This document shows, in pieces, positions 5,164 through 38,894 of a stretch of DNA of 39,156 nucleotides. Position 1 is the stretch's first letter, and every line of letters begins with the position of its first letter. The stretch covers positions 1 through 39,156 of the forward strand of contig WAPT01000019.1 of assembly GCA_015520605.1 (NCBI GenBank), written 5' to 3'. Under the pieces are notes generated by a model. It was not told where the DNA came from. It did no database searches and saw nothing but the letters and a program-made list of their open reading frames with translations. This stretch comes from Nanobdellati archaeon. GTDB taxonomy: Archaea; EX4484-52; WAPT01. The translations under genes were made by a program, and so were the position numbers.

Positions 5164-5748
5164 ATGGGGGTTATGGTATCTCTCTTTGACATCTTCAACA
5201 TGTCGAATGTCATAAAGAGAGGGAAATTTAGGATCTTTGGGAACTTAGAGTCCAACATCTATTTTGACGTTTCTGAGATCCTGAACAATCCACGCAACTT
5301 TGACATCCTCACCGATATGCTCGCTGATAGCGTCATGGCGATGAACCCCGACAGAGTGGCCGGGGCTTACACTTCCGGCATACCTCTTGCAACCGCCATT
5401 TCTCTCAAAACCAACATCCCCATGGTTTTCATAAGGCGAGAGCCAAAGGAGTACGGACTAACCCGGAGAATCGAGGGGAAATTGGAAGAAGGCGATCATG
5501 TTGTGCTTGTTGATGATGTTTTTACATTCTACGAGTACAATTTGCCATACATCGAGGCTATAGAAGAGGCAGGAGGAATCGTAACATACATGCTGGTAAT
5601 CGTGGACTTTGAGGTGCCGGAAGAGAAAAAGAAGCTTGCGAGGAAAGGTGTAGACCTCGTATCCCTCACAACCGTGCGGGAGATTGTGAACAAGATGAAA
5701 AAGCGTGGATTTTTACCCCAAGATTTCAAGGTCGAGCTAGAGTGTTAG
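5164..5748 (+). CDS. Orotate phosphoribosyltransferase-like (PyrE-like) protein with degenerate PRPP loop
   Basis: PRTase-like fold: YTSGIPLATAISLKTNIPMVFIRREPKEYGLTRRIEGKLEEGDHVVLVDDVFTFYEYN; the OPRT-style K-x-x-G..IEG loop is kept, but TTGG/S after VxVDDV is lost. Confidence 0.75.
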   Translation: MGVMVSLFDIFNMSNVIKRGKFRIFGNLESNIYFDVSEILNNPRNFDILTDMLADSVMAMNPDRVAGAYTSGIPLATAISLKTNIPMVFIRREPKEYGLTRRIEGKLEEGDHVVLVDDVFTFYEYNLPYIEAIEEAGGIVTYMLVIVDFEVPEEKKKLARKGVDLVSLTTVREIVNKMKKRGFLPQDFKVELEC

Positions 5749-7803
5749 CTTCTTTTTACTTCTTTTTTTGCAGCTGGGGTCTAAGCAGATGAACCAATGA
5801 GAGCTCTTTTTGCCTTTAGTTCGCATAATGACTCTTATAATGGGAGTACCACAGGTTTCACACACCCTCCCCGTCGGTATTATTTGACCTTTGGTTGGAA
5901 GAGGATAAGAAATTTTACATTTAGGATATGTGTCACATGACACAAATCTCTTGCCAGATTTTCCCTTTCTTATTATAAGATTGCCTCCACATTTACACTT
6001 GCCGAGTACACGCTCCTTGGATTCCATATCTTTTATGGAATACACAAGTTCCTTCCCCAACTCTTCCTCCTTTTCCTTGAGTTTATTTAGCACAGATATA
6101 AGATGGTTCTTTGCCTCCACCACTATTTCATCACTTTTTGCGATTCCTTTGCTTATTTTCTCAAGCTTTTCCTCGAACTCACGAGTTAGTTCTTCGTCCA
6201 TAATTCTTTCAGCATACTCCTTCAATATTGTTACGACCTTCTCTCCGATGGGAGTTATCTCTATTTTATTACCCTTTATGTACTTTCTTTCATATAGGTG
6301 GTGCACTATTTCAGCTCTTGTTGCCTTCGTTCCGAGGTTTCTCTTTTCAAGCTCCCTCACGAGAGAGGCAGCGGTGTATCTGTCTGGTGGAGTAGTCATT
6401 TTCTTTTCAAGCTTTACCTTATCTACGGGGTAGGTGCCATTAAGGGTGAATGCCGGCAGCTCAATCTCTTTACTTCTCAAGTAGGGTTTGTATGCTCTGT
6501 ACCAGCCTTCATGAACCACCTGCACTCCCGTTGCGATGAATTTGGCGCCATTGGCATCAAAAACAACCTTTGTGAGCATTTTTTCAGCAGGTTCCATGAA
6601 ACAAGCAAGAAACCTTCTTACGATGAGATCATAAATTTTCGCTTCATTTTTACCTAGATTTTGAGGAACCTCTCCTGTGGGGTGGATGGCCGGATGTGCT
6701 TCATCATCCTTCTTCCCTTCCTTAGGAATCAGAAGACGCTTGCTTAACAACTCCGCCACAACACTTTGATATTGTGAGATCTTTGATATACCATGCAAAA
6801 TCTTGTGAAAGTCAATTGTTCTGGGAAGCTTCTGCGAGCTCGTTCTGGGGTAGGAGATTAGGGACATTTCATAAAGCTTCTGCGCTATGTCCTGTGTCTG
6901 TTTCGGGCTGAGCTTGAAGAGCGCGTAAGCTTCAGCCTGCAAGTCGTTGAGATTGAACGACGCGGGTGGGTTGTGTTTCTTTTTCTTCCTGTTTATCTCA
7001 GCAACCCTAGCGTGTTTCGTTGCTTTCACCTTTCTGTGGAGATCTCTTGCAACAACCTCTTTTTCTATCTTACCTCCTTCATATTCTGCTTTTACCCCCA
7101 TTACCTCTATGCTGAGCTTCCAATAGGGTGTTGGCATAAACTGCCTTATCTCAAGCTCCCTGTCGTAAACTATCTTCAATGCAGGCCCCTGAACCCTCCC
7201 GCTGCTCAGTATGAAGTGTCTTCCTGCCTTTTTTACTGCGCTCATCAGAGCTCTGCTTACATTAATCCCCCAAAAATAATCTAAAATGTGTCGCGTGACA
7301 CCCGCTTCTGCAAGCCCGAAGAGAATGGTCGGTTTGGCATTCTCATACGCTTTAACAAGGTCGTCCTTTGTCAGGGTGGAGAAAAGCATACGCTGTGCAT
7401 TTTTTCTGTTACATATAAAGCGCAGGATGTTGAATCCGATAGTCTCGCCCTCAATATCGTAGTCTGTGGCTACGATTATCTTCTTGGACTTGTTGCTGAG
7501 CATTTTTATGGCAGAAATGTATTCTTTAGTATATGTCGCACTCTTACCGACAACATACAGCGGTTTCCACTCGACATCGAATACAGGGTAGTGGTTATAC
7601 GCTACCTTCTCCCTTTCCGCCAGCCCAAAAAGATGCCCTGCAGCCCCCACAACTGCTATTTTTTTGCCCTTCCTCTCTATCTCAAAATAAGGAACCTTGC
7701 CGTGCCTTTTCGTTATAATCTTTGATTCCGCAAGTGCCTGCGCTATCTTTCTTGCACTGGAAGGCTTCTCAGCTATGATGAGCTCATCGTACATTTCCAT
7801 CAT
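5737..7803 (-). CDS. topA: DNA topoisomerase I (type IA)
   Basis: Toprim start MYDELIIAEKPSSARKIAQAL, EGETIGFNI, active-site SYPRTSSQKLP, C-terminal zinc ribbons (CKCGG..CDTYPKC, CETCG..CLDPSC). Confidence 0.95.
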   Translation of the reverse strand: MMEMYDELIIAEKPSSARKIAQALAESKIITKRHGKVPYFEIERKGKKIAVVGAAGHLFGLAEREKVAYNHYPVFDVEWKPLYVVGKSATYTKEYISAIKMLSNKSKKIIVATDYDIEGETIGFNILRFICNRKNAQRMLFSTLTKDDLVKAYENAKPTILFGLAEAGVTRHILDYFWGINVSRALMSAVKKAGRHFILSSGRVQGPALKIVYDRELEIRQFMPTPYWKLSIEVMGVKAEYEGGKIEKEVVARDLHRKVKATKHARVAEINRKKKKHNPPASFNLNDLQAEAYALFKLSPKQTQDIAQKLYEMSLISYPRTSSQKLPRTIDFHKILHGISKISQYQSVVAELLSKRLLIPKEGKKDDEAHPAIHPTGEVPQNLGKNEAKIYDLIVRRFLACFMEPAEKMLTKVVFDANGAKFIATGVQVVHEGWYRAYKPYLRSKEIELPAFTLNGTYPVDKVKLEKKMTTPPDRYTAASLVRELEKRNLGTKATRAEIVHHLYERKYIKGNKIEITPIGEKVVTILKEYAERIMDEELTREFEEKLEKISKGIAKSDEIVVEAKNHLISVLNKLKEKEEELGKELVYSIKDMESKERVLGKCKCGGNLIIRKGKSGKRFVSCDTYPKCKISYPLPTKGQIIPTGRVCETCGTPIIRVIMRTKGKKSSHWFICLDPSCKKRSKKKLTL

Positions 7804-9095
7804 CGCTTGGACTTTGGCTCAATTTTCTTTATTCCATTCATGTATGGCCACAACACTTTAGGAATGTCCACACTGCCATCTTCATTCTGATAATTTTCAA
7901 GGATAGCACACATGGTTCTCTCCGTTGCTATGCCAGTACAGTTAAGGATGTGTACATAGCCCTTCGGTTTGCTTCCCTCTTTTTCCCTCCACTTTATGTT
8001 AAGCTTCCTAGCCTGATAATCTGTGCAGTTGCTCCCACTCACCACCTCTCTATACTTTTGCTGAGCCGGAAACCAAACCTCTATATCGTACTTTTTGGCA
8101 GCATTATCGTTCATCTCTCCGGAACATATATTTACCACCCTGTACGGCAGTCCCAGCTCCTGGTAGAACTCCTCGGCATTCTGAATCATCCTTTCATGCC
8201 AGTCCCAGCTTTCCTCCGGCAGGCAGAATACTATTTGCTCAACCTTGTCGAACTGGTGCACCCTGAAGATGCCTTTGGTATCTTTTCCATGTGCTCCAGA
8301 TTCCCGCCTAAAATTAGTTGAGAACCCCACATACTTAAGTGGGAGCTCATCCTTCAGAAACGTCTCATTCATGTGGTATGAAAGGATCGATTGTTCTGCT
8401 GTGGCTATGAGGTAGGCATCCATGCCTTCAACCTTGTATAGAGTTTCCTCAAAATCAGCAAGTTCTGAGGCCCCTTTCATGGCCTCACCACTTATCATAT
8501 ACGGCGTCCAAAGTGGTATAAATCCCTTGGCCGTTAGCTTATCGAAGGCATACCTTATTAAAGCGAGGTTGAGCAGCACGAGCTCGTTTCTTAGGTAATA
8601 GAACCTTGATCCGATAACCTTGGCAGCTCTGGCAACATCAGCAACATCGAGGATCTCTATCAGATCAGCATGCCCTTTTGGCTCGAAATCGAATCTCTTG
8701 GGATTTTCCCATGTCCTAACCACAACATTATCTTCCTCGCTCTCACCCACAGGCACGCTCTCATGTAGTATGTTTCCTATTCTGTAGCGGAGCTCATCTC
8801 TCTTCTGGAGGAGCTCGGCAGCTTTCTTCTCAAGCTCATCAACCCTTCGCTTTAGATCCTTCATTTTTTGAGCAAGATCCTCGGGAGTTGAACTTCTTTC
8901 TTTTCTCCTCTTTGCAACTTCGGAAAGAATCCTGTTCCTCTTCTCTCTCAGCTTCTGAAGCTCCCGTATGCTTTCCCTCCATTTTGCATCGTACTCCAAC
9001 ACTTTGTCCACTATGGACGGGTCTTTGAATCTTTTTCGCTCGGATTCCTTAACTATTTCGGGGTGTTGCCTTATGAAGTCCATGTCGAGCATCAC
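7800..9095 (-). CDS. serS: Seryl-tRNA synthetase (common type)
   Basis: N-terminal coiled-coil arm, class II motifs (FRRESGAHGKDTKGIFRVHQFDKVEQ, HILNCTGIATERTMCAILENYQ); start overlaps the topA start codon region by 4 bp. Confidence 0.96.
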   Translation of the reverse strand: MMLDMDFIRQHPEIVKESERKRFKDPSIVDKVLEYDAKWRESIRELQKLREKRNRILSEVAKRRKERSSTPEDLAQKMKDLKRRVDELEKKAAELLQKRDELRYRIGNILHESVPVGESEEDNVVVRTWENPKRFDFEPKGHADLIEILDVADVARAAKVIGSRFYYLRNELVLLNLALIRYAFDKLTAKGFIPLWTPYMISGEAMKGASELADFEETLYKVEGMDAYLIATAEQSILSYHMNETFLKDELPLKYVGFSTNFRRESGAHGKDTKGIFRVHQFDKVEQIVFCLPEESWDWHERMIQNAEEFYQELGLPYRVVNICSGEMNDNAAKKYDIEVWFPAQQKYREVVSGSNCTDYQARKLNIKWREKEGSKPKGYVHILNCTGIATERTMCAILENYQNEDGSVDIPKVLWPYMNGIKKIEPKSKR

Positions 9096-9140
9096 ACATC
9101 ACCAAGAACCTTTTAATAATTCACCGAGTGTTAAATTTTT

Positions 9141-9782
9141 ATGGGTTTATTGTCTTTCTTCTTTAGAAACAAAAAGGTCGAGAAACTGGAAACTGATGTG
9201 AAAAACATAAAAAATGAGCTTGAAAGTATAAGAACCGAGATTGAAAACACGAAAGAGCTGCTTTCATCTCTGAGTTCGGCGATAAAGCTACTTGACTCAA
9301 AATTAAAAAAGGAAGCGGAAAAGTTCAACATCAAGATGGAAGAGGTTGAAGAAAAAATATCTATCTTGATCAGATCAACTAAAATCGGGGTTGAAGCTAA
9401 AAAGGAAGTAGAAAGCATAAAGTTAAAGATAGAAGAGTTGGAAAAGTTGGTGGAGAACAAAAAAATTCGTGAAAAGAAAAAAGGATCAGAACGTAAAATT
9501 CCTGATGTGGGGATCGAAGACCGCGCTTTGTCACCGCAATCATCCGACTTCATGAAAACACTATCCCACGCGGAAAGAGAAATCATTTCTGTTTTGCTAT
9601 CTTCGGAAATTCCGCTTAGCTATGAGGAGATTGCGGAAAAGTGCGGTAAGTCACCCAGCACTGTCAGAGATCACATAAACAGTATAAGGAGAAAAGCCGA
9701 CATCATTGAGGTTGTCGAAGCTCCGGACAGAAAAAAGCTCTTCAAGATAATACCTCTCGTGAGGAAGGAGCTGATTTTCTAG
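9141..9782 (+). CDS. Coiled-coil protein with C-terminal helix-turn-helix domain
   Basis: Long heptad-rich N-terminal region; C-terminal LSHAEREIISVLLSSEIPLSYEEIAEKCGKSPSTVRDHINSIRRK HTH. Confidence 0.8.
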   Translation: MGLLSFFFRNKKVEKLETDVKNIKNELESIRTEIENTKELLSSLSSAIKLLDSKLKKEAEKFNIKMEEVEEKISILIRSTKIGVEAKKEVESIKLKIEELEKLVENKKIREKKKGSERKIPDVGIEDRALSPQSSDFMKTLSHAEREIISVLLSSEIPLSYEEIAEKCGKSPSTVRDHINSIRRKADIIEVVEAPDRKKLFKIIPLVRKELIF

Positions 9783-9790
9783 CTTGGTTG

Positions 9791-9865
9791 TTTTGTCGAA
9801 TTTTTCGACACAACTTCGACAGACATTCGACACAACTTCGACACAAACGTAATTTTTCGACACAA
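9791..9865. repeat. 75-bp direct repeat, copy 1, containing TTCGACA boxes at 11-bp spacing
   Basis: Matches 9921-9995 at 74/75 positions; TTCGACA at 9804, 9815, 9826, 9837, 9856 and inverted TGTCGAA at 9794. Confidence 0.95.
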
Positions 9866-9920
9866 CTTTTTTATAGAAATCAGCATGCATTAACCCACCA
9901 ACATTTTGACAACTAAATCT

Positions 9921-9995
9921 TTTTGTCGAATTTTTCGACACAACTCCGACAGACATTCGACACAACTTCGACACAAACGTAATTTTTCGACACAA
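9921..9995. repeat. 75-bp direct repeat, copy 2
   Basis: Same as 9791-9865 except one T to C change (9816 vs 9946); offset exactly 130 bp. Confidence 0.95.
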
Positions 9996-10052
9996 GAATG
10001 GTACGATTAACGAACATAAACTTACTAAAAACGGTGCTAGTATGTTTTAAAT

Positions 10053-11141
10053 TCATCGGGTGATCTCCACACTTTTAATGAACTCGTAGAGTTCCTTCGC
10101 CTTCCTGTTCTTCTCGAAGTGCTCTCGTATTGGTTTGATTAAGCCCTCCAAATAGCTTGCTACCGCCATCTTCAAGTCAAGAGGGTGAAGCTTGCCTTCT
10201 TTGTAATCCTTTTCCACCTCTTCGTATGACCCGTAGATACTGTCTCCGCCGTATTTTGGAGGTCTTTCAACCTTAAAATCGCTGAATGCTCTGAAAATTA
10301 TGTGCTTCACGTACTCGAGTACTGGATTATCTTCCACGACTCTCGCAGGACAGTAAGCCTTTTTAAGTTTCCTCACAATTTCTTCATAGCTGTCGTGAAC
10401 GAAGATGGCAGAATCCGGCTTACTCTTGCTCATTTTTGAAGATATTTCCTTGTCTATTTTTTCGTTCTTGTCAAACCCCTCGGTCTTTTTCGGGCCCTGC
10501 AGACCCATAAGCATGTGGTGGCTCACTATTACGGGCTTCCTCCATTTCAGTTTATCCGCGATCTCTCTCGCTAGCATGTTAACCTTTCTTTGATCAAGCC
10601 CAAGCTGGCAGATATCCACATCCAGCTGAAATATGTCGGCACACTGCATTGACGGATAGAACAGGAACGCGGTCGGGTTGCTGAGCTTTCCCACTCTCCC
10701 TGCTATTGTCAGGGCTCTTAAACCCCTCTGAATTGTGTGGTTCTTTGCTATCAGTATGACCTTCTTCCAGTACTCGGGATCATCGAAGAACTCTTTGTGC
10801 CAGATAACTTCAACCTTATTCATGTCAACTCCTGCAGCTTTCCACACCTCGACAAAATACTCACCACACTTCCTTATTTTTTCAAGATCCCCACATAGTT
10901 TGTTGTTTATCCATGCGAACGTATCAGCAAGTAAAAGTTTGAAATGCACGCCAGCTTTCATGAGATCTCTGAGTAGGAGGGGCCTAAACACCCCTACAGG
11001 CAAGTGCGCGAGCCCGCTCGGCTCAAATCCGTCGTATGCCGTAATTTTTTCTTTCGTCTCGACAAGTTCCCTCAGCTCAGCTTTGGTTACTATCTCTTCC
11101 CCCACCCCGGCTATCAACTCAAACCTCGTTTCGGCATCCAT
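10053..11141 (-). CDS. tyrS: Tyrosyl-tRNA synthetase (archaeal/eukaryotic type)
   Basis: YDGFEPSGLAHLPVG HIGH region, SSKMSKSKPDSAIFVHDS KMSKS motif, MQCADIFQLDVDICQLGLDQRKVNMLARE. Confidence 0.95.
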   Translation of the reverse strand: MDAETRFELIAGVGEEIVTKAELRELVETKEKITAYDGFEPSGLAHLPVGVFRPLLLRDLMKAGVHFKLLLADTFAWINNKLCGDLEKIRKCGEYFVEVWKAAGVDMNKVEVIWHKEFFDDPEYWKKVILIAKNHTIQRGLRALTIAGRVGKLSNPTAFLFYPSMQCADIFQLDVDICQLGLDQRKVNMLAREIADKLKWRKPVIVSHHMLMGLQGPKKTEGFDKNEKIDKEISSKMSKSKPDSAIFVHDSYEEIVRKLKKAYCPARVVEDNPVLEYVKHIIFRAFSDFKVERPPKYGGDSIYGSYEEVEKDYKEGKLHPLDLKMAVASYLEGLIKPIREHFEKNRKAKELYEFIKSVEITR

Positions 11142-11181
11142 GAAGTAGGGTTAAGTAATTTTACCCTTTAAATTTATTTTC

Positions 11182-12201
11182 ATGATCGAGATAGATGGGA
11201 GTGTGGGGGAAGGTGGGGGCCAGATAGTGAGGGCAAGCGTAGCTTACTCCTGCTTCACAGGCAAGCCCGTAAGGATATTTAATATCCGCGCTAAAAGACA
11301 AAACCCAGGATTGAGAAGACAGCACGCAACGGCAATAAAGATTCTTGCAAAAATCTTCGACGCAAATGTAAAGGGCTGCGCTGTTGGTAGCAGAGAGGTC
11401 GTCTTTGAGCCATCCGGAAAAGTAAGAAGCGGAGCTTACACTTTTGATATTGGTACTGCAGGCTCCATAACTCTTGTTCTACAGGCCCTTACGTTCGCGC
11501 TGATGGGTCGCGACTCAAAGATAACTCTAACAATCAAGGGCGGCACAGATGTTCCCTTCTCTCCAGCGTTCGATTACTTCAACCACTGCTACCTCAAACT
11601 GCTATCAGTTTTTGGATACGATGCAAGCGCCGAGGTTGTGAGAAGAGGTTACTATCCAGCGGGAGGTGGCGTCGTGAAGTTCACGTTTAACGGACATGAA
11701 CCAAAGCCAATGGTGCTGGATGAATGTGAAGAAAATCCCACAAGCGTGAACATATTCGCATCCGCATCTGCTGCTTTAAAGGCGGCCAGAGTTTGTGAAA
11801 GGATGGTCGCTCGTGCAGCAAATCTGATACGTAGGGAGCTGAAAGGTATTGCGGTGAGCACGCACATACACTACTCTGATTCCCTGTCCCCAGGAGCAAC
11901 TCTTTGCATAGTTGGCGGTGCATTACCCTCAAAAATCATCGGTGCTGATGAACTGGGAAGAAAAGGAACACCTTCGGAGAAGGTCGCTGAACTATGCGTG
12001 GCCAAATTCCTTGAGGAGTACAGCTCTGGATGCGTGGATTCTCATCTTGCAGACCACCTCATTCCTTTCCTTGCGGTGTGTGGTGGTGTTATAAAAACAT
12101 CCAGAATAACCACACACACATCAACCATGATCTGGCTTGCTAAACGATTTCTTGATGTGCAATTTGAAGTGGACGAAGGAAAGGTTGTAGTCTTACAATA
12201 A
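11182..12201 (+). CDS. rtcA: RNA 3'-terminal phosphate cyclase
   Basis: MIEIDGSVGEGGGQIVRASVAYSCFTGKPVRIFNIRAKRQNPGLRRQH; SRITTHTSTMIWLAKRFL with the conserved C-terminal His. Confidence 0.95.
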   Translation: MIEIDGSVGEGGGQIVRASVAYSCFTGKPVRIFNIRAKRQNPGLRRQHATAIKILAKIFDANVKGCAVGSREVVFEPSGKVRSGAYTFDIGTAGSITLVLQALTFALMGRDSKITLTIKGGTDVPFSPAFDYFNHCYLKLLSVFGYDASAEVVRRGYYPAGGGVVKFTFNGHEPKPMVLDECEENPTSVNIFASASAALKAARVCERMVARAANLIRRELKGIAVSTHIHYSDSLSPGATLCIVGGALPSKIIGADELGRKGTPSEKVAELCVAKFLEEYSSGCVDSHLADHLIPFLAVCGGVIKTSRITTHTSTMIWLAKRFLDVQFEVDEGKVVVLQ

Positions 12202-12244
12202 CAAATAAAAACATTATTATATTCCCTCTTCCAAACATAGTAAC

Positions 12245-15200
12245 ATGTTAATAATGAAAAGAAAAAATTATTTACTCACTTTAATCTTCCCGATAACTTT
12301 GATAGTATTAATAATGTTGTTTTCTCATACATCTTTTAGTGACAAACCAAAAAACTCCGAACTTTTTGAACTACAACAAGCCATTAGGAATGACCCTAAA
12401 ATCCTCGGTATTAAAGATCTACCAGCTTTTATTCAGGAAATGAGGCATAGAGGCATAGAACTCTCCGAGAAAAATATAAATAGTGTCAAAGTTCCATTAA
12501 TTATATACTTCACAAAAAGAGCCAATCCTGCATTGATTAAGCGACTTTTGAGACTGGGTGTCAACATTACTTCCTTGTCGCCTTCTAAACGTGTGGCTGT
12601 GGTGAGGGCATCTCTAACAACCCTTCAAGTATTGGAAAAAATGCCCGGTATTGAAATTGTTGAGTTGCCAAGAGCTTACAGAATATCTAGCACCGAATCT
12701 GTGTCTCTTATCAGAGCAGATGAGGTATGGAATGTCAGGGCGGGAAATACAAACATTACCGGGAAAGGCGTTACTGTGTGTGTCATTGATACTGGTATTG
12801 ACTACACTTATCCCGAATTTGGAAATTGTTCTACACTTTATAAACCAGCTAACAAAAGCGTGAGCGTAATTAATTATTTTCTCAATATTACCGGTCCTGC
12901 AGCAGAGAACATAACGATATCCATACCCAACTTCACAGTATATTCTGTTCATATCCTCCGATACGCGGTTTACCCTGGAGATTATCTTCGATTTTACAAT
13001 ACCAATGGTACTCTGATTAAAACAATAGCTAATGGTAGTGCGGACTACGATGTGTGGACGAACCCCACAACCACCCATAATGTTACTGCGGAGATTAACT
13101 TTACGAATCCCAACTCCTTTCTAATCATAGATATGGTCGCAAACGGAACGATGGTTCCTGAGAGTCTCTCCGTATGCAAGAAGTTCGTAGGTGGTTATGA
13201 TTTTGTGAATAATGTCCCAATCCCGAAAGATGATGTTTATCACGGTACTGCGGTTGCGGCCATCATAGGGGCGAACTCATCAACGCTCAAGGGTGTTGCA
13301 CCGGGAGTGCGTTTTGCCATTCTAAAAGCATGCGATAAACACGGATTATGCTATGACGATACAATACTGAGTAGTATTTATTGGTGCATAAATAATACCA
13401 AAAAGTACAATATTTCAATTATCTCTATGAGTTTGGGCGACAACACAACCTATAACAATTCTTGTGATGATTATGAACCTATTCTTTCAGATGCGATTCA
13501 TATTGCAATTAAAAAAAACATAACCGTCGTAATTGCGAGCGGAAATGAAGGTGATCGGTACGGGATTTCCTCGCCTGCATGCATCTCCGGAGTAATTCCC
13601 GTTGGAGCAACAACCAATAACGACGCCATAGCTCATTTCTCTAACAGGGGTCCAGCTTTTGATTATTTTGTTCTGGCCCCGGGGGTTAATATCTACGTAC
13701 CAGAACTGTTGGGCATGTATGGTTATGTCAACGGTACTTCTTTTTCGGCACCGCACGTTAGTGGAGTGGTCGCCCTGATGCAACAGTTTTACAAAACGAT
13801 TTACGGCAGACTTCCACTTCCGTCTTTAATCGCTGAAAAGTTAGTTTCAACCGGGGTTAAGCTTTTTGATAACGCTACTGGCATCGAATACCCGAGGGTG
13901 GATGCGTATGCTGCCGTTCTCTCCCTCGATCCAACTCCCCCCAAGATCTCCATAATTTCTCCTCAAACTTCAAGACTTATCATCAACAAAACGTTTTTGA
14001 ATGTCACCGCTTCGGTTGTGGATAATTTTGCTTTGAAGAATGCGAGCGTACTTTTGAAGTATGATGAGGAGCAAAAATGGAATGCAGTTTTCAATGAAAC
14101 TTATGTTGGAAATGTGAGAAATGACACGATAACGGCGGACGTTAACTTCCCACAGGATGGGTTCTACACATTGAAATTCGAAGCTTGCGACTACGCGTCC
14201 TGCAACAGCTCTACAACCATATTCACGGTGGTCGATACAACACCACCTTCTCTCTCAATAAATCTAACAAACGGCACGACCTACAAAAGCTCTTCGTTAC
14301 CAGTGTATGTAAGATGCACAGACATCACACCCATTACCAACATGAAAATCTGCATAAACCAATCATGCGTTAATGTCACCTGTGCGAATGGCGGGGCAAG
14401 AATCCTTCTTCAGAATCTCACCGACGGGTGGCATTCGATCTATGTCAGAGCAAGGGATACTGCAGGAAACAACGGCATCAGCCCGACATATTTCATTAAA
14501 GTAATGGAAAATCCAAAGCTTGAATTGAAACTTCCCAAGAAAAACGGAACCCTTCTGAATCGGAGTTGGATGAACTTCAGCGTGGAGGTAAGGGATAACT
14601 CAAATCTCTCAGCGGTATGGATTGAGATAAATTCCACCATTCAGAATATAACTCTCATACAAAATCTTACACGCACGAACATACCTTACAATGTCTCTTT
14701 GGCTGATGGAGAAAACAACTTGACCATATGCGTGAACGACACGTATGGTCTCATCACATGCTCTGCGGTATTGATCGCGGTTGATACAACACCACCGATC
14801 CTCGTCGTCAACGGTTTTGATCGAGGAAATATAATGACCAGTGGGGCTCTCAAACTCAACGTTTCCGTTGAAGATACTCCCTTCAACAATTTTAGCTGTA
14901 ATCTGATACTGCAAAAGAACTATAATACACTGTGGCATCCGGTTATGAGTGGGAGCATACAACCTTCTCTGTCCAACAATGATGAAACTTTTACAAATCG
15001 ATCCATTATAAAAACACTTTCCGATGGTATGTATAAAATTAACATTAACTGCACCGACGAAGCTGGTTTGAAAACGACGTTCTCAAGGATATTTTACGTC
15101 GATACGAGGCCACCTTCATTCAGATTTCTGACTAGCCCCAATACAAACACGATCAGAGACATAATCTACACAAACGTTTCAATTCTTAACATCACATTCA

Positions 15201-16573
15201 CTTTCGGAGATGGAGGTACGGGAATAAAGAGCTTGATGATTGAAAATGTGAGCGCGAACACTACAACAACGCTATTAAATTTAACCAATAACGACTTCTG
15301 TAACCTTACTCAAAAAAACATCACAACAAGTATTATTTTTAACGGGAACTCTTCAGAACAAACGTTTAAAATAAAAGTTGAAGATTTTGCCAACCACACA
15401 CTTGAACGCACTTTAACCTTTTTTTACGACAGCTCTCCCCCACAAATAACGGAGTTTTATGTACCCGAAAAGGTTTACAGGGGCACAAAAATAAAAACCA
15501 TAGCTATTTGTAAAGCACGCGATAACGACGGGATTTATAAATTGGAAATATCGGGAGATACATCGTCTGTAGGAAAAAAAGTAGCGTACTGTTGCGCTTA
15601 TGATCTCTCTCTAAACGTCAGGTGCGTTAATAAAACATTCTATGTTTATGTATCTTCATTTTCTCCATCACCGAAGCCCGCATTTTTAAAATCGGCGCCA
15701 ACGGCAATCCAGAATATGACAGAGAGTACACAGGACAACAACACAATGAAGATCATCGAAAACGGCGGTATGCTCGTGGAGCTCTATGTAAGCAAAACAG
15801 GAAAAACAATTGTTGACATAACTCCTGAAGAGAGAATAAGAGCGAAAATCCCTCTTTCAAAAATAGCTCTCAGAACTTCGAGAGAAGCATGGATAGATAT
15901 AGCTCTTAAGCCTGTTGATCCACACACGCTTCCGAAGGATCTTGGGAATGAGTACGAGCCAATCCGGGCATTTGAGATTACCGTAAGCAACGCTTCCGCT
16001 GTGAATTATGTACAATTAGATATCGTGGTGGATGTGAATATAGCTGCCACTTACTCCTACAATCTTATGGCATTGGTCGTGGAGGAAGATGGCAGTTATT
16101 CTTTCCATCCCTTGAAGTTTGCTGGTGTTGAGGGAGGAAATGCGCACTTCCTGTTGAGGATGGAGCATTTTTCGACAGTCTACATTCTCGGGAAAAGACT
16201 TGTGGAGACAACTCGACAAGAAAGCAATTCCAGCTATTTAGGCAGGTGGAAACCTATGGGTAAACAGATCGGAGAGAACCAAACATATCATGCTGAAAAA
16301 GGAGCGAATAAACACAGGAGAAGTGGACTAATTGTTGGTATCTTTGCACTCGTTTTGGTCGCGTTCTGTGTCCTTATTCTCACAATCATTTATAGAAAAC
16401 ACTACAAAGAGAAGAAACAGAACTACGCTCTTTCACCCCAACTCATCAAAAAACTGGAACTCCTCCAGCTCAGGGTGAGAGAACTTGAAGGAAGAGCAGT
16501 GTCACAGGAAGAAAGGGAAAGACTAAGAGAGCTTTTGGCGGAGATCGAGACGCTCAGAAAGCGTGTCATGTAA
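12245..16573 (+). CDS. Large membrane-anchored S8 (subtilisin-like) serine protease with Ig-like stalk repeats
   Basis: Signal peptide, VCVIDTGIDYTYPEFG (Asp), DDVYHGTAVAAIIGA (His), VVIASGNEGD (Asn), NGTSFSAPHVSGVVALM (Ser); repeated DTTPP.. modules; C-terminal TM GLIVGIFALVLVAFCVLILTIIY followed by a coiled coil. Confidence 0.92.
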   Translation: MLIMKRKNYLLTLIFPITLIVLIMLFSHTSFSDKPKNSELFELQQAIRNDPKILGIKDLPAFIQEMRHRGIELSEKNINSVKVPLIIYFTKRANPALIKRLLRLGVNITSLSPSKRVAVVRASLTTLQVLEKMPGIEIVELPRAYRISSTESVSLIRADEVWNVRAGNTNITGKGVTVCVIDTGIDYTYPEFGNCSTLYKPANKSVSVINYFLNITGPAAENITISIPNFTVYSVHILRYAVYPGDYLRFYNTNGTLIKTIANGSADYDVWTNPTTTHNVTAEINFTNPNSFLIIDMVANGTMVPESLSVCKKFVGGYDFVNNVPIPKDDVYHGTAVAAIIGANSSTLKGVAPGVRFAILKACDKHGLCYDDTILSSIYWCINNTKKYNISIISMSLGDNTTYNNSCDDYEPILSDAIHIAIKKNITVVIASGNEGDRYGISSPACISGVIPVGATTNNDAIAHFSNRGPAFDYFVLAPGVNIYVPELLGMYGYVNGTSFSAPHVSGVVALMQQFYKTIYGRLPLPSLIAEKLVSTGVKLFDNATGIEYPRVDAYAAVLSLDPTPPKISIISPQTSRLIINKTFLNVTASVVDNFALKNASVLLKYDEEQKWNAVFNETYVGNVRNDTITADVNFPQDGFYTLKFEACDYASCNSSTTIFTVVDTTPPSLSINLTNGTTYKSSSLPVYVRCTDITPITNMKICINQSCVNVTCANGGARILLQNLTDGWHSIYVRARDTAGNNGISPTYFIKVMENPKLELKLPKKNGTLLNRSWMNFSVEVRDNSNLSAVWIEINSTIQNITLIQNLTRTNIPYNVSLADGENNLTICVNDTYGLITCSAVLIAVDTTPPILVVNGFDRGNIMTSGALKLNVSVEDTPFNNFSCNLILQKNYNTLWHPVMSGSIQPSLSNNDETFTNRSIIKTLSDGMYKININCTDEAGLKTTFSRIFYVDTRPPSFRFLTSPNTNTIRDIIYTNVSILNITFTFGDGGTGIKSLMIENVSANTTTTLLNLTNNDFCNLTQKNITTSIIFNGNSSEQTFKIKVEDFANHTLERTLTFFYDSSPPQITEFYVPEKVYRGTKIKTIAICKARDNDGIYKLEISGDTSSVGKKVAYCCAYDLSLNVRCVNKTFYVYVSSFSPSPKPAFLKSAPTAIQNMTESTQDNNTMKIIENGGMLVELYVSKTGKTIVDITPEERIRAKIPLSKIALRTSREAWIDIALKPVDPHTLPKDLGNEYEPIRAFEITVSNASAVNYVQLDIVVDVNIAATYSYNLMALVVEEDGSYSFHPLKFAGVEGGNAHFLLRMEHFSTVYILGKRLVETTRQESNSSYLGRWKPMGKQIGENQTYHAEKGANKHRRSGLIVGIFALVLVAFCVLILTIIYRKHYKEKKQNYALSPQLIKKLELLQLRVRELEGRAVSQEERERLRELLAEIETLRKRVM

Positions 16574-28893: not shown

Positions 28894-29523
28894 CTACTTG
28901 TTTGTATCTATTTCTATAGCCTTTCTTATCTGGTGAAGCAGCTCAGCTGGGCTTTTGATCGGATACTCAAGTTTGTCGAGTATCTCTTCTATTGGCCTGC
29001 CCTTTATCACGAGTCCACCGAGTCTGTTTTTCAGTGTGTTCTTTTCCACTGGAAAGTCTGCCCCCTTGAGCCTTGATAGCACATGTACCGCCCATTCGGC
29101 ACCTAAGCTTTTCACAGCCTGCTTAGTTATTTCTATTGCGAGGTTGATCTCATCCCTGCCTGCCATGATCTCTTGGTAAGCGAGCTTTGCAAGGGCCCCC
29201 GCTGTGTGTGTTCTCCTTTCCTCGTCCTTCTCCGCTACAATTTCCTCACCCAACTTTGCTTTAAGCACCTCAGGATCAGCTCTTAACATGTTCTGCACAC
29301 TCTGTTTTGTCATACCTAGCAATGACGCTATGGTTTCGGCGCTATAACTCTTATCCTTAGCATACACTATGGCATAGCTGGCTGCCATCAAGCTTGGAAG
29401 CCATGTTAAATTGCGGTGCTCCACAAGCTTTTTTGGCCCGCCGAGTATCTCTATACTCTTAAGAAAAACTCTCATTGCCTTTGAATCAACATCCTCCACA
29501 ACGGGCTTAACCTCCACTACCAT
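28894..29523 (-). CDS. KaiC-associated probable regulatory protein (near-KaiC domain type)
   Basis: HTH-like AETIASLLGMTKQSVQNMLRADPEVLKAKLGEE; 7-bp overlap with the KaiC-like gene in the same direction. Confidence 0.75.
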   Translation of the reverse strand: MVVEVKPVVEDVDSKAMRVFLKSIEILGGPKKLVEHRNLTWLPSLMAASYAIVYAKDKSYSAETIASLLGMTKQSVQNMLRADPEVLKAKLGEEIVAEKDEERRTHTAGALAKLAYQEIMAGRDEINLAIEITKQAVKSLGAEWAVHVLSRLKGADFPVEKNTLKNRLGGLVIKGRPIEEILDKLEYPIKSPAELLHQIRKAIEIDTNK

Positions 29524-30437
29524 GACTCACCACCCCCTCCAAATTTGAGTGTGCTCTGCTTCTGCGCTTCCTTTAATAGCTCATCAAGAGAAGGCCCCAC
29601 CCTCACAAGCCCCGTCTCAGTTATCTCGAATATGTGTGTCTTAGTGTCGTGCCCGCACATCCTGCAGCCGTCAATTCTGATCAGCCTAACTATTGAGCCG
29701 ATCGGTCTTCTGTAAATATTTGCAGCATATCTACTCATAATCAGCTCTTTGGAAAGCACAATGGAACAATCGACGATGTGGCTAACTGCATAGCCTCCAG
29801 CTGCCTCAGCGGTCAACTCTTCATGCCCGCTCCTCTTTTGTGATACGAAAAGAGCTGTCTGATGTTTCAGCTTCATAAAGTTGAACAACCTTCTCACTAC
29901 ACTCCTGGCCATCATTTCCTTAGCTTCGTAAAGTCCTGTTACAGAGTCTATGACTACAGACTTGGTCTCATAAGTATCTATGGCATACTCCAACGTGTTC
30001 AGCAAACTTGAAATGTCCTCCCTCAAGATTGCGTGTGTAGCAGCATCCACCATGATTATGTTGTCCTCTATCTCATCCCATCTGATTCCCATGGCCTTTG
30101 CTCTCTCCTTAAGACCCATGCTGACGAAAGCAGCAGGAGATTCGACGGTCACAAAGCAAACTTTGTACCCTCTTGAAGCTTGTGTAACCGCGAACTGCTC
30201 AACCATGAGGCTCTTACCGGTGTCAGAAACACCCGTTATGTTGACCACCGCCAGGTAAGGTATTCCGCCTAGGGGGATCTTCTTAACCTTACCGTCCTCA
30301 ATCTTCGTTGTGAAGAACATCTCGTCAAGCCCTTCAACACCAGTCGGAATCCCAAAGAGTTTTGGGGCTCTCTTGCCAACTTCCTCTAGTGTTTCCACAG
30401 CCCCCTCTATGACTTTCGGTTGTCTTGCCCCAACCAT
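29517..30437 (-). CDS. KaiC-like RecA-superfamily ATPase
   Basis: GVSDTGKSLMVEQFAVTQASRGYKVCFVTVESPAAFVSMGLKERAKAMG Walker A region; SVVIDSVTGLYEAKEMMARSVVRRLFNFMK Walker B region. Confidence 0.88.
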   Translation of the reverse strand: MVGARQPKVIEGAVETLEEVGKRAPKLFGIPTGVEGLDEMFFTTKIEDGKVKKIPLGGIPYLAVVNITGVSDTGKSLMVEQFAVTQASRGYKVCFVTVESPAAFVSMGLKERAKAMGIRWDEIEDNIIMVDAATHAILREDISSLLNTLEYAIDTYETKSVVIDSVTGLYEAKEMMARSVVRRLFNFMKLKHQTALFVSQKRSGHEELTAEAAGGYAVSHIVDCSIVLSKELIMSRYAANIYRRPIGSIVRLIRIDGCRMCGHDTKTHIFEITETGLVRVGPSLDELLKEAQKQSTLKFGGGGESW

Positions 30438-35406: not shown

Positions 35407-35721
35407 TCACTTATAACATCCCGGCGATGTTCCGTGGAGTATCTCCTTACAGGTCACATCTCCACAGGTAACTCCACTACACTGGTCTCCACATGGATCG
35501 TCGGGTCCTGTGATATCCTGTATGTATGTGTTGTCGGGATGTTGCAAACAATAACTTACTATACATGATGCACATGTTGCGGGGTCTCCAACAGCACTCG
35601 TACTTTCTCCAAACCTCGTGGATGATCGTCCGAAGAGCGCCATAACCACCATAGCCACAGCTATTACGACCACAATGGTTATAATAAGCGTCACTGGCAT
35701 TGAGAGGCCCTTCTTTTTCAT
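35407..35721 (-). CDS. Small Cys-rich type IV pilin-like secreted protein
   Basis: MKKKGLSMPVTLIITIVVVIAVAMVVMALFG class III-type signal, then a short domain with 8 cysteines (CASC, CGDQC, GVTCGDVTC). Confidence 0.65.
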   Translation of the reverse strand: MKKKGLSMPVTLIITIVVVIAVAMVVMALFGRSSTRFGESTSAVGDPATCASCIVSYCLQHPDNTYIQDITGPDDPCGDQCSGVTCGDVTCKEILHGTSPGCYK

Positions 35722-36232: not shown

Positions 36233-38353
36233 CTATATTTCCACAGAAGTCAATCTTTCACCCCTCATCATATTTTCTATTGTTCCCACGCGGAAGAGAA
36301 AACCGCGAATGTTCTCTTTTTTCTTTATTTTTGCCAAATTCTGCAGGAATCGGTTGAGATTCTTCCTGTCCGCAACGAGCACAAACCCCACTTCACCCGC
36401 CTTGTTTAGAAGTTCGCGAACAGAATCTTCATCCGTATCCAACAATAAGAAAATCTTTTTGCTGTCCTTCTCAACAACGATTATTTTTGTGGAGGACTCC
36501 GCGACACACCACCCCCTACCTCTCATTTTTTTAATAAACCTTTCAAACACATCAATGCTTGTTATGTCTTCAGTTTCATCATCTCTAACAAAAATTCTCA
36601 ATGCAGGAATCCAATTCTCCCTTATGAAGTAAATGTGAGCATTCTGACCGTTGAGGATTATCTCTTCAAAGTCCACCACTCCCTCCTCTACCAGATCTCT
36701 CATCAGTCTTTTGAAGGTGGTGCCCGACATCCCCATGTTTTTGTAAAGGTCCGATGCCTTTGCAGCTTCAAATCTGGCCAGTTTCTTCAGCATGACTATC
36801 TGTCTTGTGTTGAATTTTTCCTTTAACTTTTCCACAATCTCCGCGGAGGAGTATGTGTGTTCGCCTTCTTTTTCTTTTGTCACCTTCTTGTCTTTTTCTT
36901 TCATTTTATCCACTTTCGATGCATCATCTGTTTCAGACTCAGAGGTAAGCAAAAACCCTCCGCCTTCCATGAAATCCCTTAAATCACCATCTCTCACTTT
37001 TCCCTTCTCTATTTCCACCTTAGGAAACCTCATGTAGAAGGGTTTGGTAAACTCGATTTTCCTGCAGAAAACAAGACCTTCACCCACTTTCAGTCTCCTC
37101 AGAAAGTCTTTCTCCTCCTCTCCCACGAGGTTGAGCATGCAGGCAGCATCATCAACATCACTTGCGTGTTTCGTCTCAAGTCCGAGGTTCATGTATAGCT
37201 GCGTTGAAGTGTTCCCTAAAGCGGTATAGGACATGAGAGATGGGTGCTGATCCGTATAGATTATTCCCACACCCAGCTCCCTGATTTCCCTGAAAATGAC
37301 ATCCGTAACAGTTTCCGTGCCTAGTTTTTTGGTTTTCTCCCTGTTCAGGATGTGATGTGCTTCCTCCACAACAATGACAGCGTTCAGCTCTTCCTTTTTA
37401 CTGTTCACAAGCAGCCAGTCCCTCAGCCACTGCAGCATGACTTCTATGAAAAACGTTCTGTCGTTGGAGGAAAGCGCATCAAGTTCTAACACCGTCACGC
37501 ACGGCTGGAAAAAAAGCTCAGCGGGGTTAACGCTTCTCTTGGGGTTAAAAGCCTCGCCTATCTCTCTGTAGCAGAGTGAGTCAAGAGCTCTTTTAGCCGT
37601 TGCGGCCCAGTTCCTCTCTCTGGCGGACGTAAAAGCATCCTCGTTCGCATAAATCCACGCTCTTATGTCCTTCAACCTTATTTCTTTGTGGGGACTCATA
37701 GACTCTATTTCATCGAGAGCTCTCAGAACAATATACCTTCCACCTCCCATCATCCAGTAAGCATGGTCGAAGATCTCTGCAAATTCTTTACTCCATTGGG
37801 AAAACGGGACGTTTTCTGGAGGCATCACGGGGTTAAAGTAGAAAGGCGACACATTTCTTCCTACGGTATAGATGCGCATTTTCTCCCTGACTTCGTGGAG
37901 CTGGAGAAGATCCCTGTAATTCCTTTTGGAGAAGTCGAAGATCACCACGGGCACATTTTTCTTCGCAAGCTCCAGAACCAGGTGCTGTACTAGAGTGGTC
38001 TTCCCGTAACCTGTAGAGCCAAAGATACCTATGTGGTGGAGAAGCACATCCATTGGCAGGAGAAATGACGACAGCTTTATGCCTCCGTAGAGGACGTCTC
38101 CCACATAAATGTCTCCTGCTTCAGCAACCTCCTTCGGGGGAGGCTCAAAAATAACGAGGTCTTTTTCAGGCATGAGGGAAAGCATTGCAGCTTTTATAGC
38201 ATCCACGAGGTCTTCCAGAAAGCTTCGGGTTTTCTCATCTCCCGAAAGATAGAGAACCTCAAGCTCCACAACCTTATCCCTACCCAAAACGGGTGCGAGC
38301 TTCTTGACCTCTCTTAAAAATGTTGTCGCTGTGCCCACCACCTCACTCACCAA
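36233..38353 (-). CDS. HerA/FtsK-superfamily ATPase with C-terminal wHTH and uncharacterised domain
   Basis: Walker A GIFGSTGYGKTTLVQHLV, Walker B AVIVVEEAHHILNREKTKKLG, RELGVGIIYTDQHPSLMSYTALGN; wHTH RFEAAKASDLYKNMGMSGTTFKRLMRDLVEEGVV; additional ~120-aa C-terminal region. Confidence 0.88.
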   Translation of the reverse strand: MVSEVVGTATTFLREVKKLAPVLGRDKVVELEVLYLSGDEKTRSFLEDLVDAIKAAMLSLMPEKDLVIFEPPPKEVAEAGDIYVGDVLYGGIKLSSFLLPMDVLLHHIGIFGSTGYGKTTLVQHLVLELAKKNVPVVIFDFSKRNYRDLLQLHEVREKMRIYTVGRNVSPFYFNPVMPPENVPFSQWSKEFAEIFDHAYWMMGGGRYIVLRALDEIESMSPHKEIRLKDIRAWIYANEDAFTSARERNWAATAKRALDSLCYREIGEAFNPKRSVNPAELFFQPCVTVLELDALSSNDRTFFIEVMLQWLRDWLLVNSKKEELNAVIVVEEAHHILNREKTKKLGTETVTDVIFREIRELGVGIIYTDQHPSLMSYTALGNTSTQLYMNLGLETKHASDVDDAACMLNLVGEEEKDFLRRLKVGEGLVFCRKIEFTKPFYMRFPKVEIEKGKVRDGDLRDFMEGGGFLLTSESETDDASKVDKMKEKDKKVTKEKEGEHTYSSAEIVEKLKEKFNTRQIVMLKKLARFEAAKASDLYKNMGMSGTTFKRLMRDLVEEGVVDFEEIILNGQNAHIYFIRENWIPALRIFVRDDETEDITSIDVFERFIKKMRGRGWCVAESSTKIIVVEKDSKKIFLLLDTDEDSVRELLNKAGEVGFVLVADRKNLNRFLQNLAKIKKKENIRGFLFRVGTIENMMRGERLTSVEI

Positions 38354-38894
38354 CGAGTATCTTGTTTATCTTTGAAATTATCGCATACTGCTCCTCCAGC
38401 ACGTTAACTTCATTTGTTATGGTTGTCGTATCTCTCCAGTAGCTCACCTCCTCCCTTCTCAGCTGAGATTTCAAAGCAGAAATATCGGCCATAACATCTC
38501 TTATGTCTTCGGGCTTTGTCATTTTTGCCATCAGTCTTTCTTTCTCCGCTATCTCGGCCTTTATGTCCTCAACGATCTGCTCGTGAATTCTTTTCCTACT
38601 CTCCAGCGCATCTCTCAGATCCTTTATCCTTTTCTCCAAAAACTTGCATCTTTCTCGTATTGTTCCGACAACTTCTTCTACTTTGAGCTTTAATTCGTCA
38701 ATGTCTTCTGTCGTTTCAGCCTCCAGTCTTGTCGGGTGTACGTGCACGTCCCTCCTGACCACTACCTTTTCTTCTGCTTGTTCTCTTTCCCTCCACACGT
38801 TTGCAGGGGAAAAAAGAGTATCTTCCTCTTTGAACATTTCCCTGTAGATCTTTTCTGACTTGTGTTTCTCTGTGCGATAGTACCGCTCCTCCAC
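38343..38894 (-). CDS. Coiled-coil partner protein of the HerA-like ATPase
   Basis: 183 aa, GTG start, strongly helical/charged; 11-bp overlap with the downstream ATPase gene, same strand. Confidence 0.7.
   Translation of the reverse strand: MEERYYRTEKHKSEKIYREMFKEEDTLFSPANVWREREQAEEKVVVRRDVHVHPTRLEAETTEDIDELKLKVEEVVGTIRERCKFLEKRIKDLRDALESRKRIHEQIVEDIKAEIAEKERLMAKMTKPEDIRDVMADISALKSQLRREEVSYWRDTTTITNEVNVLEEQYAIISKINKILVGE

Follow-up and report, generated by a model that had tools for sequence, protein, structure and literature searches.

A conserved pair of genes in DPANN archaea encodes a HerA/VirB4/FtsK-superfamily ATPase and a coiled-coil protein

The gene pair and its conservation

The stretch of DNA analysed here (the window, 39,156 nucleotides) makes up contig 19 of an archaeal genome of 0.86 Mb. 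It contains two adjacent reading frames on the minus strand, coding for an ATPase and a coiled-coil protein, at exactly the positions given in a preliminary description of the sequence (Table 1). That description reported an overlap of 11 bp, which is correct if the TTG at 38353 is the start of the ATPase. Translation might instead begin at an in-frame GTG, at 38350 or 38341, giving an overlap of 8 bp or none respectively, and the length of the overlap is therefore uncertain.

Table 1. Positions of the two genes and of the domains and motifs of the ATPase within the window
Feature	Position	Strand	Basis or remarks
Coiled-coil partner gene	38343..38894	(-)	183 aa, GTG start; upstream of the ATPase in homologues; alignment, heptad period
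HerA/VirB4/FtsK-type ATPase gene	36233..38353	(-)	706 aa from TTG; alternative GTG starts at 38350 and 38341
Overlap of the two reading frames	38343..38353	(-)	11 bp with TTG 38353 as ATPase start
N-terminal helical domain, residues 1-75	38129..38353	(-)	AlphaFold2 helices 2-18, 20-23, 25-37, 40-60; conserved in homologues
P-loop motor core, residues 76-465	36959..38128	(-)	DUF87; Foldseek
Walker A GSTGYGKT, residues 112-119	37997..38020	(-)	G112, G117, K118, T119 invariant in 29/29
Walker B strand ending EE, residues 325-331	37361..37381	(-)	E330, E331 invariant in 29/29
Low-complexity linker, residues 466-505	36839..36958	(-)	pLDDT ~30; fastest-evolving segment
Winged helix-turn-helix, residues 506-590	36584..36838	(-)	AlphaFold2; MarR-type Foldseek matches; HTH families in 20/27 members
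Most likely a degenerate restriction-endonuclease-like domain, residues 591-706	36236..36583	(-)	Topology, live relatives, motif lost

Among 61 genomes searched, 11 from the window's order, the window's own included, carry strong homologues of the ATPase (91 to ~41% identity), and the coiled-coil protein is present in exactly these 11. Around 20 further loci were found in a scan of public genomes, nearly all of them labelled Aenigmatarchaeota; the window's nearest named relative is a 'DPANN group archaeon'. The coiled-coil gene lies upstream of the ATPase and on the same strand at every locus for which there is upstream sequence, in two archaeal phyla. Of 31 non-redundant loci, about 23 have the two genes overlapping, frequently by 4 bp, or no more than 18 bp apart, and this retention of tight spacing supports the translational coupling proposed earlier. 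At one locus (L035:6311-7520, genome G013) the pair is split by two genes on the opposite strand, one of which resembles an AbiEii-type nucleotidyltransferase.

Comparison with the close relative L033 gives dN/dS of 0.116 for the ATPase and 0.104 for the coiled coil, indicating purifying selection on both. Within the ATPase the values are 0.062 for the motor, 0.111 for the winged helix and 0.162 for the C-terminal tail. It is concluded that the ATPase and coiled-coil genes form a real, conserved unit.

Relatives occur in 11 of the 34 genomes from the window's phylum and in 25 of the 156 from its sister phylum, nearly always in one copy. The distribution of the pair is patchy, and because it is missing from genomes that are up to 93% complete it is not essential to the whole group. 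In a quick tree, sequences from the window's phylum group together (88% SH-aLRT) and cluster by family. A comparison of neighbourhoods across the loci found no conserved neighbours beyond the two genes themselves. A survey for defence islands had been proposed in the preliminary description; the homologue loci show no island around the pair in the window's clade. Two scans of viral contigs gave no relatives and a phage search gave only weak matches, confined to the motor core, on which grounds a viral origin was rejected.

Three other regions of the window deserve mention. Positions 28894-30437 encode a KaiC-like ATPase (TIGR03878) followed, with a 7-bp overlap, by a near-KaiC regulatory-domain protein (TIGR03879), which is a known archaeal pairing. 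The gene at 35407-35721 encodes a small protein of secreted or pilin-like type, which combines a Cys-rich body with a short hydrophobic segment at the N-terminus and for which there was no Pfam match; locus L032 has a similar-looking gene at the equivalent position. A 1442-aa subtilisin-family protease with Ig-like domains (Peptidase_S8, 8.1e-42), probably secreted or attached to the cell surface, is encoded at 12245-16573.

Domains of the two proteins

The ATPase matches Pfam family DUF87 (E=3.8e-12). The HerA/FtsK-type Walker motifs noted previously are borne out by this match and by the invariance of the P-loop and Walker B residues in an alignment of 29 homologues, in all of which two arginines and the glutamine of strand 4 are likewise invariant. 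The AlphaFold2 model of the ATPase has a mean pLDDT of 80. Foldseek comparisons of its motor core gave TM scores (normalised to the target) of 0.73 for the C-terminal domain of DndH, 0.72 for VirB4 and 0.57 for Sulfolobus HerA (SsoHerA). The motor is a P-loop ATPase of the HerA/VirB4/FtsK superfamily, with all the catalytic residues kept.

At the N-terminus the model has four helices followed by a β hairpin; it shows this short helical domain and no HAS β-barrel. The best NCBIfam match is CedD, which is below threshold at 66 bits (cut-off 600), as is HerA at 31 bits (cut-off 800). The best match in PADLOC is mad8 (1.7e-15), a 314-aa profile that covers the motor core only. Neither protein has a membrane segment, the maximum 19-residue hydropathy being 1.46. 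Bacterial plasmid DUF87 ATPases were considered as relatives and rejected: they have the motor core alone in common with the window protein and their architectures differ.

A DUF87 domain was also seen in a quite different setting. Contig 8 of genome G010, from the same order, contains tandem giant open reading frames (L131:6519-10700(-) and the adjoining frame, L131/L132), of 1393 aa and, within the stretch read, at least 9702 aa; a search of the genome gives a 12145-aa open frame. They are rich in Asn, Ser and Thr, surface-like, and have related C-termini, and the 1393-aa frame has a HerA-type DUF87 ATPase domain (1.1e-11) near its end. G004 and G028 have similar frames of 3107 and 3106 aa whose ATPase matches are weak.

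After the motor core, residues 470-500 are modelled at a pLDDT of ~30, in agreement with the low-complexity linker described previously, and the winged helix and α/β tail expected after it are both present in the model. The C-terminal 198 residues are predicted with high confidence (pLDDT 91.5). The tail had been described as α/β and unassignable. The first of these holds, while the second can be revised: the DSSP order of elements in the model after the winged helix is α-β-β-β-α-β-α-β, which corresponds to the restriction-endonuclease-like core α-β3-α-β. Foldseek gave no direct match between the tail and a nuclease structure, its matches being mostly MarR-type winged helices, and the endonuclease-like assignment therefore rests on topology and on relatives. 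The only high-ranking match spanning both the winged helix and the tail, AF2093 (2ph7), has an rmsd of 17 and was discarded as uninformative. Pfam has no family for the tail of the window protein.

The relatives in question are two distant proteins, L093 and L094, which share the N-terminal domain, motor and winged helix with the window protein. They end in GAAVDILVTKDGQRTAIEVETGK and GKAVDLVASKDGRRIAIEIETGK respectively, where the D...ExE nuclease motif is intact, and the L094 tail weakly matches Mrr_cat in Pfam (E 0.014). L093 (67% GC) may be a contaminant contig, as may L094, and the two are used here as relatives and not as evidence of host. A protein from another archaeon, L127, has a similar nuclease motif at its end. 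In an alignment of the window family with L093, 2 of the 29 members retain the catalytic D and none retains the first E. The profile match between the tails of the window family and of the live relatives is weak (pairwise P 0.0024, probability 12%). An endonuclease-like topology, together with a motif that is present in relatives and lost in the window family, therefore suggests that the tail is most likely a disarmed restriction-endonuclease-like fold, lacking catalytic residues, which probably now only grips DNA.

The L127 locus (5590-12627) comes from a 1.7-Mb single-contig genome. This relative with a live nuclease tail lies in a different multi-gene cluster, which includes a small membrane protein, and the coiled-coil partner was not detected there.

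The partner protein has two stretches free of Pro and Gly, residues 78-127 and 129-181, with a 3.5-residue hydrophobic period that was equalled in one of 500 shuffles. This agrees with its earlier description as a coiled coil. It matches nothing in Pfam or the PDB. A remote version of the partner also lies ahead of the ATPase in each of L092, L094, L125 and L126 (profile E 1.3e-6, 5.6e-18, 1.1e-6 and 1.4e-5 respectively), and the pairing is therefore older than the window's clade.

Comparison with known DNA motors

HerA acts with NurA in archaeal end resection, and carries an N-terminal HAS barrel. The window protein has in common with HerA the P-loop motor fold, the Walker motifs and the lack of a transmembrane segment, but has neither the barrel nor a NurA neighbour, and adds the winged helix, the putative dead nuclease domain and the coiled-coil partner. 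Its identity as HerA was rejected, given its helical N-terminus and the HerA-type genes and NurA found elsewhere in the genome. With CedB/CedD and VirB4, which function in DNA import and type IV secretion, it shares the motor core, and CedD is its best NCBIfam match; however, it has no transmembrane segment, VirB4-type N-terminal domain or channel genes.

HerA/FtsK motors have been captured recurrently by defence systems (PMC10853773), and these 'HerA/FtsK capture' systems, including DndH, combine such a motor with a winged helix and active or inactive endonuclease domains, as in the window. The window pair differs from them in having no SWI2/SNF2-like, methyltransferase or Orc/CDC6 parts or partners, and in not being found in mobile neighbourhoods. 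The resemblance to mad8 of the MADS system is limited to the motor core, and the only conserved neighbour of the module is the coiled-coil gene.

The analogy with FtsK would extend to the motor, the flexible linker and the C-terminal winged helix, although the window protein has no membrane domain, its linker comes after the motor, and it has an additional nuclease-like domain. In FtsK, the C-terminal winged helix loads or orients the motor on dsDNA.

We found no description of a HerA-like/coiled-coil pair from DPANN archaea in the open-access literature, and no characterised family to which both proteins belong; the existence of such a family is what, according to the preliminary description, would overturn its reading. 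The motor is of a known kind, and its pairing with a dedicated coiled coil and a putatively disarmed nuclease domain is undescribed in the open-access literature and the libraries searched.

Possible cellular roles

The most likely interpretation, to which we give a probability of about 0.5, is that the pair encodes a soluble dsDNA translocase with a coiled-coil adaptor, acting in chromosome maintenance. The two proteins would form one cytosolic complex in Aenigmatarchaeota and in the window's phylum, its DPANN sister, with the ATPase as a ring-forming, ATP-driven translocase and the coiled coil as its obligate subunit. The coiled coil would be an adaptor, probably bound to the short helical N-terminus of the motor, while the winged helix and dead endonuclease-like domain, on their flexible linker, would probably load the motor onto dsDNA or set its orientation there. 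Such maintenance could consist of repair, fork clearance or segregation. This role is favoured because of clade-wide retention, purifying selection and the absence of an island. Also consistent with the overall model are the invariant motor residues, the nearest solved folds (HerA, DndH and VirB4, all DNA-translocating), the coiled coil adjoining the ATPase even in L092, L094, L125 and L126, the tail topology and live-nuclease relatives, the single copy, the taxonomy-like tree, and the lack of conserved neighbours, viral relatives and hydrophobic segments. Counting against it are the patchiness, which fits defence too, the defence-type genes beside distant relatives, and a nuclease-like assignment made from topology, position and a weak profile match. 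The preliminary description had offered DNA translocation, defence or segregation: translocation is well supported by family membership, segregation has only a housekeeping-like distribution behind it, and defence is supported only indirectly, by the surroundings of distant relatives.

Defence is ranked next, because live-tail relatives adjoin defence-type genes and capture of HerA/FtsK motors is well established (PMC10853773), but we regard it as unlikely for the window pair. In this reading the winged helix and dead nuclease domain would sense DNA from an invader, along which the motor would travel, and an effector encoded elsewhere would be triggered or recruited by the coiled coil. L094 combines a live nuclease tail with the coiled coil, and the genes around it resemble TmtA, a mad2-like methyltransferase, an SNF2 helicase and a Rad50/LmuB-like ATPase; L093 is near a C5 methyltransferase; and both the mad8 match and the patchy distribution would fit. 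However, the window's clade has no defence neighbours, effector or live nuclease, its sequences track taxonomy with no sign of jumping, and there are no phage or viral relatives that would point to an arms race. The distant live-nuclease relatives beside defence genes do make a defence ancestry likely, and the pair would probably descend from a motor-nuclease system through loss of cleavage.

Both remaining possibilities are less likely than chromosome maintenance or defence. A role like that of the Ced and VirB4 ATPases, moving DNA through the membrane in uptake or transfer, is improbable: the motor fold is equally near VirB4 and HerA, CedD leads the NCBIfam matches and in the relative L091 a long stretch is added at the N-terminus and a neighbouring gene codes for a membrane protein, but neither window protein has a transmembrane segment, no CedA-like or pilus gene is conserved beside the pair, and the window protein lacks the TM domain and NTD of CedD (PMC11868833).

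As described earlier, the surroundings of the module yielded no NurA, Mre11 or Rad50. This is uninformative with regard to NurA, because the window's genome carries HerA-type genes and NurA elsewhere (NurA on another contig, C21). A lineage-specific replacement of HerA-NurA in end resection, to which a HerA-like motor adjoining a putative former nuclease domain and the lack of a NurA in some carriers (G008, G013) might point, is very improbable given these retained genes, a tail without catalytic residues, and no association of NurA with the module (6 of 11 carriers and 17 of 23 non-carriers have it; Fisher p=0.43).

To our knowledge, few archaeal DNA motors besides HerA have been characterised. 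DPANN genomes are small, and a motor pair retained in them under strong selection is therefore likely to be useful. We tentatively suggest that the chromosome-maintenance complex could be a dsDNA pump with two obligate subunits, which DPANN archaea domesticated from a motor-nuclease defence module whose nuclease was disarmed, and which now works as an FtsK-like chromosome motor alongside HerA-NurA. If the tail is indeed a disarmed nuclease, the family would exemplify the conversion of a defence-like motor-nuclease into machinery of the cell.
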